Assembly (NCBI GenBank): GCA_012032575.1
Contig: JAAUSP010000129.1
Coordinates: 1-15,156, forward strand
Direction: 5' to 3'
DNA length: 15,156 nt
Source of the DNA: Anaerolineales bacterium
GTDB lineage: Bacteria > Chloroflexota > Anaerolineae > 4572-78 > J111
In this document: positions 7,982 to 15,156 of the stretch, piece by piece
How the letters are laid out: each line of letters begins with the position of its first letter
How positions within the stretch are numbered: position 1 is the first letter of the stretch
Translations under genes and position numbers: made by a program
The notes under the pieces: model-generated
What the model saw: the letters and a program-made list of their open reading frames with translations, nothing else
Database searches by the model: none
What the model was told of the DNA's origin: nothing

Positions 7982-8683
7982 ATGATCCAGATTCGTAATC
8001 TCATTAAAGCCTTCGGCTCGCGAGTGGTGCTGCGCGGGGTGGACCTGACCATCAACGAAGGCGACTTTGTGGCCCTCATGGGGGCCAACGGGGCGGGCAA
8101 AACGACCCTGCTGCATATCGTTGCCACGTTGAGCAAACCCACCGGCGGGAGTGTCGCCATCAGTGGTTACAACACCGCCGACTCGGCCACCGAACTACGC
8201 CGCTTTATCGGCCTGGTTTCGCACAAAACGCTGTTGTACGATGACCTGACCGCCGACCAGAATTTGCATTTTTACGCCCGCCTGTATGATGTACCTCACA
8301 GTTCGGCCCGGATCGAACTGCTGCTCAAACAGGTCGGGTTGTGGGGCCGCCAGAACGACCCGGTGCGAACTTACTCGCGGGGGATGCAGCAGCGGCTGGC
8401 GATTGCCCGCGCTATGCTGCACAACCCTCCTCTGCTCTTGCTTGATGAACCCGATACCGGCCTCGACCAGCATGCTGCCGACCGACTGAACGAGTTGTTG
8501 ACTGCCGTCGGAGCCGACCAGCGCACCATCTTAATGACCACCCACAACCTGGAACGCGGGCTGTCGCTGGGCAATCGGGTGGTGATTTTAGCCAAAGGCA
8601 AAATTGCTTACGATGTACAGCGCCAGGAGGTCGGCATAGCCGAGGTCCGCGAGCGCTATTTTCAATTTGTAACAGCCAATTAG
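7982..8683 (+). CDS. ccmA: Heme exporter ATP-binding subunit CcmA
   Basis: 233-residue ABC ATPase that powers release of heme-loaded CcmE from CcmC/CcmD. Walker A GANGAGKTT (34-42), Q-loop area VSHKTLLYDDLT (79-90), signature YSRGMQQR (131-138), Walker B LLLLDEP (151-157) and H-loop histidine in MTTHN (H188) are all present. Short length without extra domains and the neighbouring ccmB and ccmC identify it as CcmA. The start ATG 7982 lies 7 bases after the DUF2283 stop with no good Shine-Dalgarno sequence, so translation may depend on coupling to the inserted gene. An upstream in-frame start at 7919 would add a non-conserved N-terminus and is rejected. Confidence 0.93.
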   Translation: MIQIRNLIKAFGSRVVLRGVDLTINEGDFVALMGANGAGKTTLLHIVATLSKPTGGSVAISGYNTADSATELRRFIGLVSHKTLLYDDLTADQNLHFYARLYDVPHSSARIELLLKQVGLWGRQNDPVRTYSRGMQQRLAIARAMLHNPPLLLLDEPDTGLDQHAADRLNELLTAVGADQRTILMTTHNLERGLSLGNRVVILAKGKIAYDVQRQEVGIAEVRERYFQFVTAN

Positions 8684-8708
8684 GGGTGTCACGTGTTACG
8701 ATATAACG

Positions 8709-8858
8709 AACTTGACACATTACTACTCAGGCTCATGTCATTTCGAGCGACGAAGGAGCGTGAAATCCACAAGGTGCAACACGTAGAAGTAAGGTAGTAG
8801 AGGATTTCTCCCTACGGTCGAAATGACATGGCTGAGCAGTTACCTTGAAACTTGACAC
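8709..8858. mobile_element. MITE-like inverted-repeat element between ccmA and ccmB
   Basis: The spacer carries an inverted repeat with exact 13-base cores CATGTCATTTCGA (8734-8746) and its complement (8818-8830), extended outward by imperfect matching (ACTACTCAGGCT against ACTGCTCAGC). A second inner pair is GAAATCC (8762-8768) and GGATTTC (8802-8808). The direct repeat AACTTGACAC flanks the whole unit at 8709-8718 and 8849-8858, like a target duplication. The core resembles the CATTTCGA..GAAATC repeat family seen in many environmental genomes. No ORF is inside, so it would be non-autonomous. Confidence 0.65.
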
Positions 8859-8875
8859 CTGACCCAATTCTTACC

Positions 8876-9611
8876 ATGACCGAGCAAGTCCAACCCTTAC
8901 CCAATTCCATCCCGGCGACCGTTCCGCGTGGCTTTGCCGGTTATGTGCGTAAAGTGCTGGCAATTGTCGGCAAAGATATTGCCACCGAAATCCGTACCAA
9001 AGAGATGATCAGCGCGATGTTTGTCTTTTCGCTGCTGATTATATTTATCTTTAATTTTGCTTTTGATTTGCGGGCCGAGAATCTGCAAACTGTCGCACCG
9101 GGGGGTTTTGTGGGTGGCTATTGCTTTTGCCGGGATGCTGGGCTTGAGCCGCAGCTTTGTGCTGGAACGGGATCGGGGCGTCATGGATGGCTTGCTACTG
9201 GCTCCGATGGATCGCAGCGCCATTTATTTTGGCAAAATGATCGGCAACGTGCTGTTTATCAGCCTGGTGGAACTTTTTGTTCTGCCTATTTTGTCATCCT
9301 GTTCAACCAGAGCGCAGCGACTTTGCCGCTTTTGTGCGGCGTGGTTATTTTGGGTACAATTGGTTTTGCCAGTGTCGGCACGCTGTTTTCGGCCATGGCT
9401 GTCCATACCCGCGCCCGCGAAGTGATGCTGCCCCATTATGCTCTTTCCGGTGATCGTGCCGCTGCTGCTGGCCGCCGTCCGCCTGACCGCAGCTATTTTG
9501 GATAACATCCCTCTGGCCGAGGTGAGTCACTGGCTGGCGTTGCTGGTTGCCTTTGATGCTATTTTTATTGCCGCGTCGTTTATGTTGTTTGAGTACGTCG
9601 TTGAGGAATGA
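8876..9611 (+). CDS. ccmB: Heme exporter membrane subunit CcmB, broken by three apparent indels
   Basis: CcmB is the six-helix permease partner of CcmA. Start ATG 8876 gives MTEQVQPLP..RKVLAIVGKDIATEIRTKEM, the normal N-terminal phrase. Three shifts are needed to read the rest: one base too many in the G6 run 9100-9105 (then LWVAIAFAGMLGLSRSF), one too few at the T4 run 9289-9292 (then FVILFNQSAATLPLL), and one too many in the C4 run 9431-9434 (then PIMLFPVIVPLLLAAVRL). The frame then runs to TGA 9609-9611. Corrected length is about 244 residues, slightly over the family norm. Every segment between indels is well conserved with no substitution stops, which favours sequence error over decay. 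The TTG at 8852 lies in a repeat and is unlikely as start. Confidence 0.85.
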
Positions 9612-9731
9612 GCGGGCGAATGGCCGCGCCACGTAAGCGAATGGCGAATAGAATCAGGCTGTAACAAGTCTGCCCTTTCTAATTTCTAAATTCTTATTTC
9701 TTATTTTTCATCTCTTGTCTGGAGTAATTTT
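9612..9731 (+). other. ccmB-ccmC spacer, repeat-like and pyrimidine-rich
   Basis: The first part carries the direct motif GCGAATGG (for example 9639-9646, with GGGCGAATGG at 9614-9623). The second part (about 9673-9716) is a T-rich tract made of TTTCTAA and TTCTTATTT units. GGAG (9720-9723) precedes the ccmC start. No ORF or clear promoter was seen. Confidence 0.4.
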
Positions 9732-10496
9732 ATGGCGACACCCACTGCCTTAACACGACCAGCAAAAACCGAGGCGGCTGCCGGCGGTTTTAATTGGGGA
9801 CTGGGGCTAACCGTTGTCAGCGGCATTTTTATGGTGATAGCTCTGTACATGGCTTTAGCCTGGGCGCCCGATGCGCTCAACCTGGAAGCTCCAGCCGAGC
9901 GTTACGCCCAACGCATTTTTTATTTCCACGTCCCTTCGGCCTGGATTGGTTTTTTAGCCTTTATCGTCGCGGCGGTGACTGCTGTATTGTATCTTGCCAC
10001 CCGCAACCCCCGCTGGGACATCTGGGGGCTGGCCTCGGTTGAAGTGGGGCTGGCCTTTTTTACGATGGTCATGCTGAGCGGCCCTATCTGGGCCAAACCA
10101 ACCTGGAATGTCTGGTGGACCTGGGACCCGCGCCTGACCATCTCGACCATCAGTTGGTTGTTGTATATCGGCTATCTCATGCTGCGCGGTGCGGTAGATA
10201 ACCCCGAGCGGCAGGCGCGCTTTGCCGCTGTTTATGCCCTGATAGCCGCCATCTCGGTCCCCATCAATTGGATGGCGATCCGCTGGTGGCGGACCATCCA
10301 TCCGGCAGTGGTGGCCCCCGGCAAAAGCAGTGACGCGATGGGTGGGTTTGGCATGTCGGACAGTATTATGCTAACCCTTATGTTCTGCCTGGTGGCCTTT
10401 ACCGTTTTTTATATTACCTTGATGTATCACCGCATTCGCCTGGAAAATTTGAAACGGCGGGTGGACGCGGTCAAGCAGGAAATATTGTATCGGTAA
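9732..10496 (+). CDS. ccmC: Heme exporter/handling protein CcmC
   Basis: 254 residues, six predicted membrane helices. CcmC loads heme onto CcmE. The first conserved histidine lies in FYFHVPSAW (H66), the WWD domain is GPIWAKPTWNVWWTWDPRLT (117-136), and the second histidine is in RTIHP (H190), matching the bis-His plus WWD arrangement of the family. The N-terminal 22 residues are extra and soluble. Start ATG 9732 has GGAG at 9720-9723. The gene is intact, unlike ccmB just before it. It is followed by a hairpin repeat and then the CcmD-like gene. Confidence 0.94.
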   Translation: MATPTALTRPAKTEAAAGGFNWGLGLTVVSGIFMVIALYMALAWAPDALNLEAPAERYAQRIFYFHVPSAWIGFLAFIVAAVTAVLYLATRNPRWDIWGLASVEVGLAFFTMVMLSGPIWAKPTWNVWWTWDPRLTISTISWLLYIGYLMLRGAVDNPERQARFAAVYALIAAISVPINWMAIRWWRTIHPAVVAPGKSSDAMGGFGMSDSIMLTLMFCLVAFTVFYITLMYHRIRLENLKRRVDAVKQEILYR

Positions 10497-10508
10497 TCGA
10501 AGGTTTGT

Positions 10509-10547
10509 GTGTTGCGTGTTCCGTAATACTAACGGAACACGCAACAC
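10509..10547. repeat. Inverted repeat after ccmC
   Basis: GTGTTGCGTGTTCCGT (10509-10524) pairs exactly with ACGGAACACGCAACAC (10532-10547) around a 7-base loop. An extra GCAACAC copy follows at 10548-10554. There is no T-run, so intrinsic termination is unlikely. A degenerate relative occurs at about 10803-10852. Confidence 0.8.
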
Positions 10548-10589
10548 GCAACACGTCAGTAAATTTTGAATTAATCAAGGACTTTCTCA

Positions 10590-10742
10590 ATGGGCGACAC
10601 AATTTACCTCACCGCCGGCTACGCCGTCTTCTGGATTGTCAGTTTTGTTTATATTTACACCCTGGTTAACCGCCAGCGCAACCTGCAAAAAGAGGTCGAG
10701 ATGCTGGAGCAAGTAGCCCGCGGTGAAGGGAACAGAGAATAG
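10590..10742 (+). CDS. ccmD: CcmD-like small membrane protein
   Basis: A 50-residue ORF directly after ccmC: MGDTIYLTAGYAVFWIVSFV, then YIYTLVNRQRNLQKEVEMLE and a short tail. It has one N-terminal helix (about residues 7-26) and a charged amphipathic C-terminus with an R..L..E.. pattern. This is the size and layout of CcmD, which joins CcmC and CcmE and is needed to release holo-CcmE. CcmD is too variable for a motif match, so the call rests on size, topology and position. AAGG at 10577-10580 is a plausible ribosome site. Confidence 0.75.
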   Translation: MGDTIYLTAGYAVFWIVSFVYIYTLVNRQRNLQKEVEMLEQVARGEGNRE

Positions 10743-10802
10743 AAATTTGCTGTGGGGGTGTAGGTAAGAAATTCGTTAGATTTGCGTCATAAGATTGAGG
10801 CA

Positions 10803-10852
10803 ACGTGTTACGTCTTACGTCTTGCGTAACATAAACGCAACACGCAACACGA
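10803..10852. repeat. Degenerate copy of the CGTGTTGCGT repeat before ccdA
   Basis: CGTGTTACGTCTTACGTC at 10804-10821 is an imperfect inverted match to ACGCAACACGCAACACG at 10836-10852. The units are the same as in the repeat after ccmC, so the two spacers around the CcmD-like gene carry members of one family. The 10743-10895 spacer otherwise shows no gene. Confidence 0.55.
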
Positions 10853-10895
10853 ATTACCGTTTCCCGAAACTTCCAAAAAGAAATTAGGCATAATT

Positions 10896-11624
10896 ATGGA
10901 AAATATCACTATTTTTGCTGCTTTTATCGCTGGATTACTGTCCTTTATTTCCCCGTGTGTTTTGCCGCTCATCCCCGTTTATTTGGGCTATTTGAGCGGC
11001 TCCACCATCACCGGCACTGACGCGCCTCCGCGCAGTTATGTTTTTACCCACGCCCTCTTGTTTGTGGCTGGCTTTACCTTTATTTTTGTGGTGGTATTTG
11101 GCGCGCCGGTGGGCTTTTTGGGTGGAGCGTTGGGTAAAGTGGCCGATTATATGGTCTGGGTAGGCGGCCTGGTGTTGATTATTTTTGGGCTGCATATCAT
11201 GGGCCTGATTAACATCCCTATCTTTAACATGCAAAAGAAGATGGAGTACGGCTACGGCCAGACTCCCAGCTACGCCCGCAGTGTTATTGTGGGCATGACG
11301 TTTGCCGCCGGTTGGACTCCCTGTATTGGACCACTGCTGGGCGCAATTTTGACCCTGGCCATCCAGGGGCAGAATGTCGGCCTGGCGATGTTTTATCTCT
11401 TTATTTATTCGATGGGCCTGGCGGTGCCGTTTCTGGTGACGGCCTGGATGCTGACCGCCGCCACCAGCCAGCTCAAAAAACTCAACCGCCACATGGGCCT
11501 GATCGAGCGGGTCAGCGGCGCATTTATCATCCTCATCGGGGTGATGCTGCTGACCGGCACCTTTACCTATTTTAATACCATCGCCAATCAACTGGCCCCG
11601 GCCTGGCTGCTCGAAAATATTTAA
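10896..11624 (+). CDS. ccdA: CcdA cytochrome c biogenesis thiol transporter
   Basis: 242 residues, six or seven membrane helices, related to the membrane core of DsbD. It moves reducing equivalents from cytosolic thioredoxin across the membrane to the extracytoplasmic thioredoxin-like protein. The two redox cysteines are C21 in SFISPCVLPLIP and C143 in AAGWTPCIGP, both in the typical proline-flanked settings. Length is normal for CcdA. It is intact and ends the ccm block; a strong terminator follows 16 bases later. A long antisense reading frame over it is a shadow. Confidence 0.93.
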   Translation: MENITIFAAFIAGLLSFISPCVLPLIPVYLGYLSGSTITGTDAPPRSYVFTHALLFVAGFTFIFVVVFGAPVGFLGGALGKVADYMVWVGGLVLIIFGLHIMGLINIPIFNMQKKMEYGYGQTPSYARSVIVGMTFAAGWTPCIGPLLGAILTLAIQGQNVGLAMFYLFIYSMGLAVPFLVTAWMLTAATSQLKKLNRHMGLIERVSGAFIILIGVMLLTGTFTYFNTIANQLAPAWLLENI

Positions 11625-11640
11625 GCTGGTTCCGTTCACA

Positions 11641-11676
11641 AAAAAGGCCGGAGGGTGTTGCATCTCCGGCTTTTTG
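11641..11676 (+). terminator. Intrinsic terminator after ccdA
   Basis: GCCGGAG (11647-11653) pairs with CTCCGGC (11664-11670) around a 10-base loop, flanked by AAAAA on the left and TTTTT (11671-11675) on the right, which also pair through a one-base G bulge. The T-run after a GC stem gives a good rho-independent terminator, and its A/T symmetry lets it work on both strands. Confidence 0.85.
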
Positions 11677-11692
11677 TGGATAAAATTCTAAT

Positions 11693-11953
11693 ATGCAAAA
11701 AGTAACCCTGTACACCAAACTGAACTGTCATTTATGCCAGGATGTCTACATGATGTTAATGGAACTCACCTTGGAGACCCCACTCGAAATTGATTTGGTA
11801 GACATTACTCACGCTCATAACAGCCATATCCGCGCCAAATACACTGATCGTATCCCTGTGTTAGCCCGTCCCCAAAGCGAGGTTGAACTCGAATGGCCCT
11901 TTACGATGGCTGATATTAGAGCCTTTCTCAGCGATCCAGCCCCCGATTCATGA
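11693..11953 (+). CDS. Glutaredoxin-like (DUF836 family) protein
   Basis: 86 residues with a thioredoxin-fold start VTLYTKLNCHLCQDVYMML: the active-site-like CxxC is C12-H-L-C15. The later segment DRIPVLARP holds the cis-proline after IPV, as in glutaredoxins. The fold lacks the C-terminal glutathione-binding GG pair, so it fits the short DUF836 group. Probably a cytosolic thiol reductant; substrate unknown. It starts 17 bases after the terminator, so it needs its own promoter or read-through. Its stop overlaps the next start (ATGA). Confidence 0.8.
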   Translation: MQKVTLYTKLNCHLCQDVYMMLMELTLETPLEIDLVDITHAHNSHIRAKYTDRIPVLARPQSEVELEWPFTMADIRAFLSDPAPDS

Positions 11954-12708
11954 CCTCCCAACTCCCCCAACGCCGCCCGGTGACAGGTCCGGCCCGCCAC
12001 CTGACCCTCTGGGCAAACCGGCGGATTCTGTGGCTGGCCCACCACTGGCTGGCCGTCTTCAATCTCTTTTTTTTCCTTTACGTGGGGCTGTCTTTTTTGG
12101 CTCCGGTATTGTTGGCTTACGGCTATACCGATGTGGCCAACACCCTCTACAGTCTGTACCGGGCCACCTGCCATCAGCTTCCCTCACGCTCCTTCTTTAT
12201 CCTGGGCGAACAGGTCGCCGTCTGCCACCGTGACGTGGCAATTTATGCCGCCTTTCTGTTGGGGGGACTGGGCTACGGGGTGATCCGGCCTCAGTTGAAG
12301 CCGCCGCAGGTGCGCTGGTACGTTTTTTTTCTATGGCCCATCGCCCTCGATGCGGGCATGCAGCTCGCCAGCGATTGGCTGGCCGGCGGCGTTTCGATGG
12401 GCGCGTTGTGGGCCATCGGCCTGATTGCGCTGGGTCTCACCAGCGCCATTCTCCACCGCTTTAAATATCTCACCTGGCACAGCTATCTCTATTTTTTGGC
12501 CGGTCCTCTGGGGTTGATTTACATAAAATATTTTGGCCCTTACCAGAGCGACCTGTTCCGGCGCACCATTTCCGGGGTTATTTTTGGTCTGGCCTCGGTC
12601 TGGCTATTCTATCCCTACCTCGAAGATGCCTTTCAGGATATTCGCCGCCAGACAGGTGATACATTAGCCCGCGCTGCTGGCGTAGACGCCCCGGTAAGCG
12701 GGCGGTAA
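11950..12708 (+). CDS. DUF2085 family membrane protein
   Basis: 252 residues with about five membrane helices. The DUF2085 signature is TCHQLPSRSFFILGEQVAVCHRDVAIYAAFLLG (residues 73-105), with conserved C74-H75-Q76 and C92. In most members the second site reads CxRCxG; here it is C92-H93-R94-D95, so one cysteine of that set is missing. Function of the family is unknown; the Cys/His set suggests metal or thiol chemistry at the membrane. Translationally coupled to the glutaredoxin-like gene. Its last 45 bases overlap the 3' end of the opposite-strand plsC gene. Confidence 0.8.
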   Translation: MTSQLPQRRPVTGPARHLTLWANRRILWLAHHWLAVFNLFFFLYVGLSFLAPVLLAYGYTDVANTLYSLYRATCHQLPSRSFFILGEQVAVCHRDVAIYAAFLLGGLGYGVIRPQLKPPQVRWYVFFLWPIALDAGMQLASDWLAGGVSMGALWAIGLIALGLTSAILHRFKYLTWHSYLYFLAGPLGLIYIKYFGPYQSDLFRRTISGVIFGLASVWLFYPYLEDAFQDIRRQTGDTLARAAGVDAPVSGR

Positions 12709-13248
12709 CATCGCTGCAATCTGCTCCATCAACACCTGGGTCAACCGCCGCAAAGTCTCCCGATCAGAGCTAGTCGAACCGGCCAGGGCCACCATATCGA
12801 ACGGCGGTCCGGCCTCAATTCTGATTTTGTTGCCCTTCCAGCCTTTTTTCATATCAAACTTTTCGGTGCCGCTGATGGCCACCGGCACCACCGGCGTCTG
12901 ATAGTCGAGCGCCAGTTTGACCGCCCCGGCCCTGCCCCGGCGCAACTGCGCCTTTCCTTTACTGCGCGTTCCTTCGGGAAACATGCACAAAACCTGGCCT
13001 GCCTCCAACACTCGACCGGCTTGACGCAGCGCCCAGGCATCACTTTCGCCGCGATACACCGGAAACGAGCCGCACATGCGGATAGCCCAGCCAAAAATTG
13101 GGTTTTTATACAATTCAACTTTAGCCATAAAGTACAGCGGCCTGGGCGCATACAAACCGGCATAAACCACATCCATATTGCTGATGTGATTTGAAGCAAA
13201 AATGTACGGCCCTGACGCCGGAAAATTCTCAAAACCGACACATTCCAC
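12664..13248 (-). CDS. plsC: PlsC-type 1-acyl-glycerol-3-phosphate acyltransferase, N-terminus unclear
   Basis: LPLAT-family acyltransferase of phospholipid synthesis. From GTG 13248 it reads MECVGFENFPASGPYIFASN, with the catalytic HX4D motif HISNMD (H21, D26), the substrate site FPEGTR (90-95) and PVVPVAISG. The listed 194 residues lack the usual N-terminal hydrophobic part. Upstream, another frame starts at ATG 13327 (MTWYTRETVVSRMIKF) and a third gives LGGLYSMLRLTWN; two missing bases (near 13279-13282 and near 13240) would join them into MIKF..LGGLYSMLRLTWNVVGFENFP, a normal PlsC start. So the true gene probably spans 12664-13327 with indels. It converges with the DUF2085 gene. Confidence 0.85.
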   Translation of the reverse strand: MECVGFENFPASGPYIFASNHISNMDVVYAGLYAPRPLYFMAKVELYKNPIFGWAIRMCGSFPVYRGESDAWALRQAGRVLEAGQVLCMFPEGTRSKGKAQLRRGRAGAVKLALDYQTPVVPVAISGTEKFDMKKGWKGNKIRIEAGPPFDMVALAGSTSSDRETLRRLTQVLMEQIAAMLPPAYRGVYASSAG

Positions 13249-13382
13249 GTCAGCCGCAGCATGGAATAGAGTCCGCCCAAAACTTAATCATCCGGCTAAC
13301 GACGGTTTCGCGGGTATACCAGGTCATACTGTCCCGCCAGTCGGGGCGGGGGCAATTTTAGAGGCTTCTTCCATCGGTTCCA

Positions 13383-13841
13383 TTATTCCTTCAAAGCAGT
13401 CAAAACCTGTTCGCTGTGGGTTTCCGGTTTGACTTTACGGAAAATCCTGGTGATAACACCGTCGGCCCCAATCAAAAAGGTGGTCCGCTCCACCCCCCAG
13501 AATTTTTTGCCGTACATAGATTTTTCCACCCACACCCCATACATCTCGGCCACTTTGTGATTTTCGTCGGCCAGCAGAGGGTAGGGCAAATTTTCTTTGG
13601 CCTTAAATTTGGCCTCATCTTTAACCGTATCCGGGCTGACGCCCAAAACTACCACCTCAGCCGCTTGATACTGCTGGAAATCATCACGGATTCCCTGAGC
13701 CTGGACCGTTCAGCCACTGGTCAGGGCTTTGGGGAAGAAATACAGCACGACTCGTTTACCCCTGAAATCCGACAATTTGGTTGGCTTGCCCGAATCGTCG
13801 AGTAATTCAAAATCGGGGGCCATTTCTTTTTCGTTGAGCAT
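13383..13841 (-). CDS. bcp: BCP/PrxQ-type peroxiredoxin with in-frame TGA (predicted selenocysteine) at the catalytic position
   Basis: Thiol (here probably selenol) peroxidase that reduces H2O2 and organic hydroperoxides. ATG 13841 follows GAGGAG (13847-13852) at 5 bases. The frame reads MLNEKEMAPDFELLDDSGKP..VVLYFFPKALTSG, then TGA at 13712-13710, then TVQAQGIRDDFQQY..VVVLGVSPD and on to TAA 13385-13383, 152 residues with the TGA decoded. Both sides are in one frame. Aligned by family knowledge with E. coli BCP (PKAMTPGCTVQACGLRD), the TGA is codon 44, exactly the peroxidatic Cys. The BCP resolving Cys five residues later is Gln here, so it would be a 1-Sec enzyme needing an outside reductant. 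A stem-loop at 13673-13700 fits a bacterial SECIS. A callers' truncated version would start at 13655. A sequencing error or nonsense mutation is the alternative. Confidence 0.85.
13673..13700 (-). promoter_or_regulatory. Candidate bacterial SECIS stem-loop
   Basis: On the minus strand, 14 bases after the TGA, GGGAATC (13695-13689) pairs with GATTTCC (13682-13676), seven pairs with one G-U, closing loop CGTGAT (13688-13683). GCT (13700-13698) and AGC (13675-13673) add three pairs below a two-base bulge CA. The apical loop starts 21 bases after the TGA and has G at its second position; both agree with published bSECIS rules (16-37 bases, G in the first two loop bases). Confidence 0.6.
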
Positions 13842-13860
13842 TTTGTCTCCTCATAAATAA

Positions 13861-13950
13861 AATTACACAGAGTTACACGGAGTCCTCGCAGAGGAACACA
13901 GAGAAAAACTTTGTGTATCTCTGTGACTTCTTTGCGTTCTCTGTGTTACG
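13861..13950. repeat. ACACAGAG/CTCTGTGT repeat cluster
   Basis: The spacer upstream of the peroxiredoxin is built of alternating ACACAGAG and CTCTGTG words. ACACAGAG (13864-13871) and CTCTGTGT (13939-13946) are exact complements at the ends, with CACAGAG and CTCTGTG pairing inside. It can fold into nested hairpins. No coding signal was seen. Similar words are widespread in intergenic DNA of environmental bacteria. Confidence 0.7.
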
Positions 13951-13955
13951 TATTT

Positions 13956-15152
13956 TCATCGCCGGTGTCGCCCCATCGAGACTGTCCGACTCCTCAAAAA
14001 ACAACGATGCCTCGCCTCACCCCTCCTCGCCTCCTCGCCTCTCCCCAACCAAAAAGCCAACGTCAGCACCGCCGCCAGATAGCCCAGGTAATTCGGCTGG
14101 AGAAAACGAGATACAAAGAAAAAGGCCAGCAAAAATATCCCGTAGCCATACAACATGGCCCCGAGTGTGTTCTGCCGGGCCTGCCGGCGCAGCAAAACCC
14201 ACAGCAGCGGCCCGCCGACAAGCAGCTCCGGGATGATAAAGGGCCAATACTGAAAGCGATCCGCCACCCAGCCGAACGCCAGCACTAGGTTGCTGGCCCC
14301 CCACCCCCAGATTTGATAGCCGGTCGGCCCCTGCCCGGCTGACCAACGCCAGACATCGTCAAACATCGCGTCGGGATTCCACACCAACCAGGGCAGGGTG
14401 AGCAGGCCAAACACCAGCGGCAGCGACCATGCTTGCCGCCAGAGGACAGCCATTCGCTCGCGCCAACTGGCCCGCTCTCCCCCATTGTCCAGCAAGTAGA
14501 GCAGCCAGAAAGGGACCAAAAACCAGGCCGTCGGCTTGCTGGCACAGGCCAGTCCCAACACAGCGGAAGCCGCTAATCGCCGGCCCGGCTGGCTCGAACG
14601 GACCAGCCACAGCGCCAGCACAATCCAGAAGAGCACAAACGGATCGTTCTCGCCAAAAATTACGCTGACGGCCAGAATGGGGTTGAGTCCCATCAAAGCC
14701 AGGGTGATTAATTTTTCTCGCCGCGACTGGACAAGCTGCGGCGTCAAGACCAGGGTTATAGCAAAGAGCAGCAGGTAAACCATGCGCTGGTCAAACCAGC
14801 CCAACAGCCCGTGGCTCAACAGGTAAAACGGAGCCGAAAAAATAAAGGTCCAGGGCAGATAGGGGTAATGGTACAGCGCCGTCCGGTACTCGCCAAACCC
14901 CCACTCGGCCATAGGCGTGTTGACGTAATCCTCGACGTAGGGATTGAGGCCGTTGAGAAAATAATCAACGGTTACTTCGGTTTGAATCACCCCGCCGTCG
15001 TGGGCGTAGCTGGCCGGGCCGCTCAGGTGGCGCAGGTTGATCAGCAAAACGGTTTTGCCAAAAACTAGCAGGCCGATAATCCCGTAGATGAGCGCCAGCT
15101 TCAGCCGATAAATCGTTTGGGCGCGCCGTTCTTCTTCAAAACTGTCAACCAC
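13956..15152 (-). CDS. GT-C-like multi-pass membrane glycosyltransferase (possibly incomplete at 5' end)
   Basis: 398 residues from GTG 15152; the frame is still open to the window edge, so the true start may lie outside. About nine or ten hydrophobic helices, with a first outer loop SYAHDGGVIQTEVTVDYFLN (acidic D/E residues) and NPYVEDYVNTPM typical of polyprenyl-phosphate-dependent GT-C enzymes, and ACASKPTAWFLVPFWLLYL, a Lys-Pro phrase common in DUF2029/GT87 proteins. Predicted to transfer a sugar from a lipid carrier on the outer face of the membrane; acceptor unknown. The last 30 residues (GRGEEARRGEARHRC..GRHRR) are translated from a repeat tract (14010-14046) and unlikely to be ancestral. 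Confidence 0.65.
   Translation of the reverse strand: MVDSFEEERRAQTIYRLKLALIYGIIGLLVFGKTVLLINLRHLSGPASYAHDGGVIQTEVTVDYFLNGLNPYVEDYVNTPMAEWGFGEYRTALYHYPYLPWTFIFSAPFYLLSHGLLGWFDQRMVYLLLFAITLVLTPQLVQSRREKLITLALMGLNPILAVSVIFGENDPFVLFWIVLALWLVRSSQPGRRLAASAVLGLACASKPTAWFLVPFWLLYLLDNGGERASWRERMAVLWRQAWSLPLVFGLLTLPWLVWNPDAMFDDVWRWSAGQGPTGYQIWGWGASNLVLAFGWVADRFQYWPFIIPELLVGGPLLWVLLRRQARQNTLGAMLYGYGIFLLAFFFVSRFLQPNYLGYLAAVLTLAFWLGRGEEARRGEARHRCFLRSRTVSMGRHRR
14010..14046. repeat. CGAGGAGG-type short tandem tract inside the glycosyltransferase 3' end
   Basis: On the + strand the tract is built from CTCGCCT and CCTCCTCGC units in imperfect tandem. It replaces the natural C-terminus of the minus-strand glycosyltransferase with an Arg/Glu-rich tail. 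Another example of short repeats placed at gene ends in this genome. Confidence 0.6.
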
Positions 15153-15156
15153 TCCG

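Follow-up and report, generated by a model that had tools for sequence, protein, structure and literature searches.

Sec peroxiredoxins and the Anaerolineales locus

Peroxiredoxins containing selenocysteine (Sec) form a known selenoprotein family. A published table lists Peroxiredoxin, COG1225 (Bcp), with the motif TxxU, above the heading "Predicted (71)" and citing Sohling 2001 (PMC9312934), 43 Sec-peroxiredoxin sequences are reported from the Sargasso Sea (PMC1088965), 12 Sec peroxiredoxins with five Cys-to-Sec conversions are counted, besides three selenoproteins in Chloroflexi (PMC1794560), and 91 are counted in 78 organisms (PMC5029168). Going by these counts, the gene described here is an addition to the already known COG1225/Bcp, TxxU family. 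Among the titles listed in literature searches, none is on an Anaerolineae Sec-peroxiredoxin group, and the string "chloroflex" is absent from the body text of three papers, PMC13188914, PMC5029168, and PMC12013277.

The gene lies on a stretch of 15,156 nucleotides, positions 1 to 15,156 of contig JAAUSP010000129.1, called the window below. Its host probably belongs to Anaerolineales, judging from synteny with a related locus, L001. The features discussed are as follows.

13383..13841, minus strand: predicted Sec BCP/PrxQ-type peroxiredoxin gene encoding 152 residues, Sec44 included (NF006960, Pfam, PDB chains)
13710..13712, minus strand: in-frame TGA, codon 44, at the peroxidatic Cys position of PxxxTxxU (codon comparison among relatives)
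13673..13700, minus strand: predicted bacterial SECIS hairpin, 7-bp stem 13695-13689/13682-13676, 6-nt loop CGUGAU 13688-13683
13847..13852, minus strand: Shine-Dalgarno-like GAGGAG, 5 nt upstream of the ATG (from sequence)
12664..13383, minus strand: PlsC-type acyltransferase frame, the downstream neighbor (PF01553, 103.9 bits; synteny)

With the Sec peroxiredoxins of COG1225/Bcp (e.g., WP_011365628.1; PMC9312934, PMC1088965), the window gene shares the family label, the PxxxTxxU motif with predicted peroxidatic Sec, a predicted 3' SECIS, and Cys homologues, a likeness judged by features. It differs from them in its host, Anaerolineales as judged by synteny, and in a predicted protein that lacks cysteine. 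PrxU of Eubacterium acidaminophilum is likewise a Sec peroxiredoxin of the AhpC/TSA superfamily. However, the window protein scores only 52.6 bits against a cut-off of 270 for the equivalog NF040737 (peroxi_PrxU), which we take from its name to represent that protein, and it therefore does not belong to this equivalog. Cys-type BCP/PrxQ enzymes (NF006960; chains such as 3gkn and 5iph, named bacterioferritin comigratory protein; closest chain 5enu) share the family and the active-site motif but have Cys where the window protein has Sec, at residue 44.

The preliminary description proposed a frame open from ATG to TAA except for one TGA at the catalytic position, and its coordinates proved exact: the start codon is 13841-13839, the stop codon is 13385-13383, and the 152 residues plus stop contain a single internal stop, at 13712-13710. 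Translated with Sec at that codon, the protein reaches 173.7 bits against the cut-off of 140 for NF006960 (BCP, thioredoxin-dependent thiol peroxidase) and 127 bits for Pfam AhpC-TSA. Eighteen distinct PDB sequences match at an E value of 1e-10 or better, with BCP chains aligning along the protein. Codon 44, in the motif PKALTSGU, aligns with the Cys of homologues and PDB chains, as had been claimed, and in the two printed alignments, 5enu and 5iph, the Cys of TPGCT stands opposite it. Frames that could be read through a TGA occur at 24 places in the window, one of which, at 1297, is the end of the first ccmF piece; by eye, a catalytic-motif context is seen solely at 13712.

The PlsC frame is kept beside the peroxiredoxin gene in relatives, as a neighbor outside the mechanism proposed below. 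Near its start, the window sequence shifts out of frame and has two in-frame TGAs; in L001 and L002 the frame is open. Three genes, ccmF (130-2104), ccmB (8852-9505), and plsC, are each broken by frame changes, which are either assembly indel errors or signs of gene decay; in L002, both ccmB and plsC have an open frame. A HicA-type toxin gene (2385-2630; PF07927, 52 bits) lies between ccmF and ccmH, preceded by a frame (2062-2421) that looks HicB-like by eye and has no Pfam match. Directly upstream of the peroxiredoxin gene are inverted repeats (CACAGAG... elements, 13866-13947), and window positions 13862-14009 have no alignment to L001. A promoter search returned one promoter-like site, on the opposite strand and at chance level, and a terminator search found none near the gene end, again a result at chance level.

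Codon 44 and Sec machinery among relatives

Scanning genome contigs of 84,980 species, we found 303 related stretches and retained the best 80 as loci. The comparison of homologues suggested in the preliminary description gives a Cys codon or TGA at codon 44 in all of these best 80 of 303: TGA in 27, TGC or TGT in 53. The seven nearest loci (L001 to L007; Anaerolineales/Anaerolineae/Chloroflexi, 61-89% identity) all have TGA, which in every case is the sole stop within the match, and their genomes hold one close copy each, other matches (E value of 1e-5 or better) having 38% identity or less. Apart from codon 44 itself, the 28 TGA genes (the 27 loci and the window) each have an open frame of 141-164 residues around that codon. 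The TGA form also occurs in two more distant Chloroflexi (L065 and L069) and in Acidobacteriota, Planctomycetota, Gemmatimonadota, Fidelibacterota, Armatimonadota, and Poribacteria. Compared with the NF006960 cut-off, two of five other TGA loci score above it (L005 and L011) and three below it (L054, L055, and L065), NF006960 still being the best family of the latter.

It is thus very improbable that this TGA arose by sequencing error, or by nonsense mutation of a gene that is dead, even though the frame changes in ccmF, ccmB, and plsC reveal that the window sequence is not fault-free. Those faults are frame changes and not single-codon changes, and the same codon is TGA, as the single internal stop, in seven relatives whose isolate names suggest at least five projects. 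The claim that the position of the TGA is beyond chance therefore holds, for the 7/7 nearest loci and for 27/80 loci among the best 80 of 303.

It is just as improbable that the UGA is a true stop and that GTG 13655 begins a separate 90-residue protein. Standard calling of open reading frames does give only this GTG-start fragment (13655-13383), so that gene callers shorten the gene to 90 residues, as had been foreseen. However, the catalytic residue would be missing from both halves, and relatives conserve the residues flanking the UGA and those leading up to the GTG.

From 8,000 candidates scored in a protein database search, 120 were listed. Position 44 is Cys in 14 and Trp in 10 of the 24 nearest listed proteins (P0002 to P0025), and among the remaining 96 it is Cys in 95 and Trp in one (P0108). 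All 11 Trp-labelled proteins (P0002, P0005, P0007, P0010, P0011, P0016, P0017, P0018, P0020, P0022, and P0108) have a longest contig of 1,261 bases or less, which would fit a fallback of gene callers to table 4. Judging from the protein sequences, Trp at this catalytic position is thus probably TGA translated with that table. The available portions of PMC12013277 and PMC1242214 contain nothing bearing on Trp misreading of TGA.

Least probable of all, to the point of being nearly negligible, is that the Trp labels are right and that TGA is read as Trp by genetic code 4 or suppression, since TGA is an ordinary stop for 7 of the 18 listed window open reading frames (one a frameshifted ccmF piece), codon 44 is never TGG in the 80 genomic loci (best 80 of 303), and sister genomes encode a tRNA-Sec with anticodon tca. 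To our knowledge, Trp is also unable to act as a peroxidatic residue.

Very probably, then, this is a gene for a BCP/PrxQ-type peroxiredoxin, and its UGA codon 44 would be decoded as Sec by tRNA-Sec and SelB, acting at a SECIS hairpin just 3' of it, with Sec44 in place of the peroxidatic Cys. Consistent with Sec decoding, machinery genes are concentrated in genomes with the TGA form. We searched 50 genomes: every one of the 27 with the TGA form and, out of 53 with the Cys form, the 23 that stood highest in the list. SelA or SelB exceeds its curated cut-off in 27/27 TGA genomes and 5/23 Cys genomes. Taken singly, SelB does so in 20/27 and 5/23, SelA in 23/27 and the same five Cys genomes, and SelD in 25/27 and 9/23. 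A tRNA-Sec at 51 bits or more is found in 22/27 TGA genomes and, again, the same five Cys genomes, with the threshold set by us after a gap was seen (the Rfam cut-off of 47 passes 34/50 genomes, and matches of 47-50 bits are presumed to be other tRNAs). Fisher p values, uncorrected for kinship, are 5e-4 for SelB, 1e-5 for SelA, and 4e-5 for tRNA-Sec. Among the 27 TGA genomes, no match above threshold was found for SelB in seven, SelA in four, tRNA-Sec (51 bits or more) in five, and SelD in two, which is probably due to incomplete or faulty metagenome-assembled genomes. ARAGORN called a tRNA-Sec (tca) in all 12 loci given to it, 10 of them from TGA genomes and two from Cys genomes, and no tRNA within the window.

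In the seven nearest genomes, matches above threshold number four for SelB, six each for SelA and SelD, and four for tRNA-Sec. The sister genome G001, which carries L001, aligns in order with window positions 8302-8700, 8846-13861, and 14010-15156 at 84-86% DNA identity. It has SelA, SelD, and tRNA-Sec, the last among those called by ARAGORN, and SelB as frameshifted pieces. This SelB (L130, G001:C4:33500-37000) is broken into pieces in several frames, as from indel errors, so that a family search over the cut-off misses it. SelD itself has an in-frame TGA in G001 and G002. Further AhpC/TSA-family genes with in-frame TGA, in the contexts FFPLAWTPV-U-T and FYRGHT-U-GVC, occur in G005, G003, and G001 (L142, L143, and L144), so these genomes probably encode several selenoproteins.

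The hairpin downstream of the UGA

The hairpin stem of the window begins 14 nt and the loop 21 nt after the UGA, as in the seven nearest relatives, and the 6-nt loop of this group is CGUGAU, CGUGAC, or CGGGAU. Across these eight sequences, 98.2% of stem cells are paired, with two pairs covarying and five invariant, and sliding the partner strand by 1 to 3 columns lowers pairing to 23-68%. RNAalifold recovered the same seven pairs plus four lower ones; the window's own fold shows three lower pairs, with 13700 and 13673 as their outer ends. The full stem is present in 7/8 of this group, in 2/20 other TGA genes, and in 0/53 Cys genes. Among the 20 other TGA genes, seven have a best hairpin of another form, with loop GUU, and three of the 28 TGA genes have no hairpin within the set limits.

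When codons were replaced synonymously with the protein kept, the mean z score was -1.12 for the 28 TGA genes versus -0.20 for the 53 Cys genes (Mann-Whitney p 6e-5), and -3.76 for the window; singly, five of the 28 and five of the 53 fall under 0.05, and all these p values are too small because the genes are kin. For a second hairpin score, the difference between TGA and Cys genes fell short of the 0.05 level (p 0.088). For the window alone, the folding evidence is equivocal. The 60 nt from the UGA are not more stable than dinucleotide shuffles (z +0.71), and the pairing probability of the hairpin varies with the stretch folded (about 0.29, 0.41, and 0.94), with competing folds. Thus, it is the comparison of relatives that makes the predicted hairpin clear.

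A bacterial SECIS model (PMC13188914) asks for a stem of 4-16 bp, a loop of 3-9 nt, spacing of 16-37 nt, G in loop position 1 or 2, and a minimum free energy at or below -7.5. The window hairpin agrees with the model in its 7 bp, CGUGAU loop, and 21-nt spacing and is borderline in energy, at -7.4 for the 7-bp stem alone and -8.1 with the three lower pairs. Rfam at the gathering threshold gave no match in the window. Together, the Cys and TGA homologues, the Sec machinery in genomes with the TGA form, and the SECIS-like hairpin common to close relatives support the original suggestion of a Sec peroxiredoxin at the level of sequence comparison.

Reductant and exchange of Sec and Cys forms

In peroxiredoxin chemistry, the Thr and the peroxidatic residue of PxxxTxx[C/U], here Thr41 and residue 44, bind and attack peroxide. 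In the window protein, the selenolate of Sec44 would attack peroxide and become a selenenic acid. As the predicted protein contains no cysteine of its own, this acid is probably reduced by an outside thiol, the likeliest being thioredoxin or a partner that resembles thioredoxin or glutaredoxin. Three other products encoded in the window are candidate partners by neighborhood only: a ResA-like AhpC/TSA protein, a membrane protein of the DsbD/CcdA type, and a glutaredoxin-like DUF836 protein.

A Cys other than at position 44 is missing from 16/28 TGA genes versus 12/53 Cys genes (Fisher p 0.003), and none of the TGA genes (0/28) has a Cys at +30 to +45, versus 15/53 Cys genes. By contrast, a Cys at +5 shows no difference (7/28 versus 14/53), while among the 24 nearest database proteins it is found in 0/10 Trp-labelled and 8/14 Cys rows. 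In a tree-aware test on six independent pairs on starred branches, a number with which 0.05 is unreachable, the median p was 0.5 for the +5 Cys and 0.25 for any other Cys. A link between Sec and loss of the resolving Cys is not established, given that the +5 Cys is about equally common in both forms.

For a tree, we masked residue 44 in 114 proteins, 81 from the genes and 33 chosen from the database. This tree, whose bootstrap had not settled, pairs the window with L001 (98/86) and places both in a 32-row group (98/93) of 8 TGA, 10 Trp-labelled, and 14 Cys rows. On the best tree, the Cys label requires 14 changes, at least six of them forced by starred branches. This count suggests repeated replacement, in both directions, between Cys forms and Sec (or Trp-labelled) forms. 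The rows were collected from a Sec query, so the frequencies of TGA and Cys rows are unrepresentative. A broader proposal, which we put forward tentatively and rate somewhat below even chances, is that of an Anaerolineae clade with a cysteine-free "1-Sec" BCP, in which Sec gain and loss of the resolving Cys were coupled and Sec and Cys were swapped repeatedly. If true, this clade would offer a natural setting in which to test why Sec is used and what reduces a peroxiredoxin relying on selenium only.

With these results, a Chloroflexi group with good support joins a known selenoprotein family, whose genes databases shorten or appear to print with Trp at the catalytic site. Moreover, the contribution of selenium could well be studied by comparing Sec and Cys versions of this small enzyme that are closely related.
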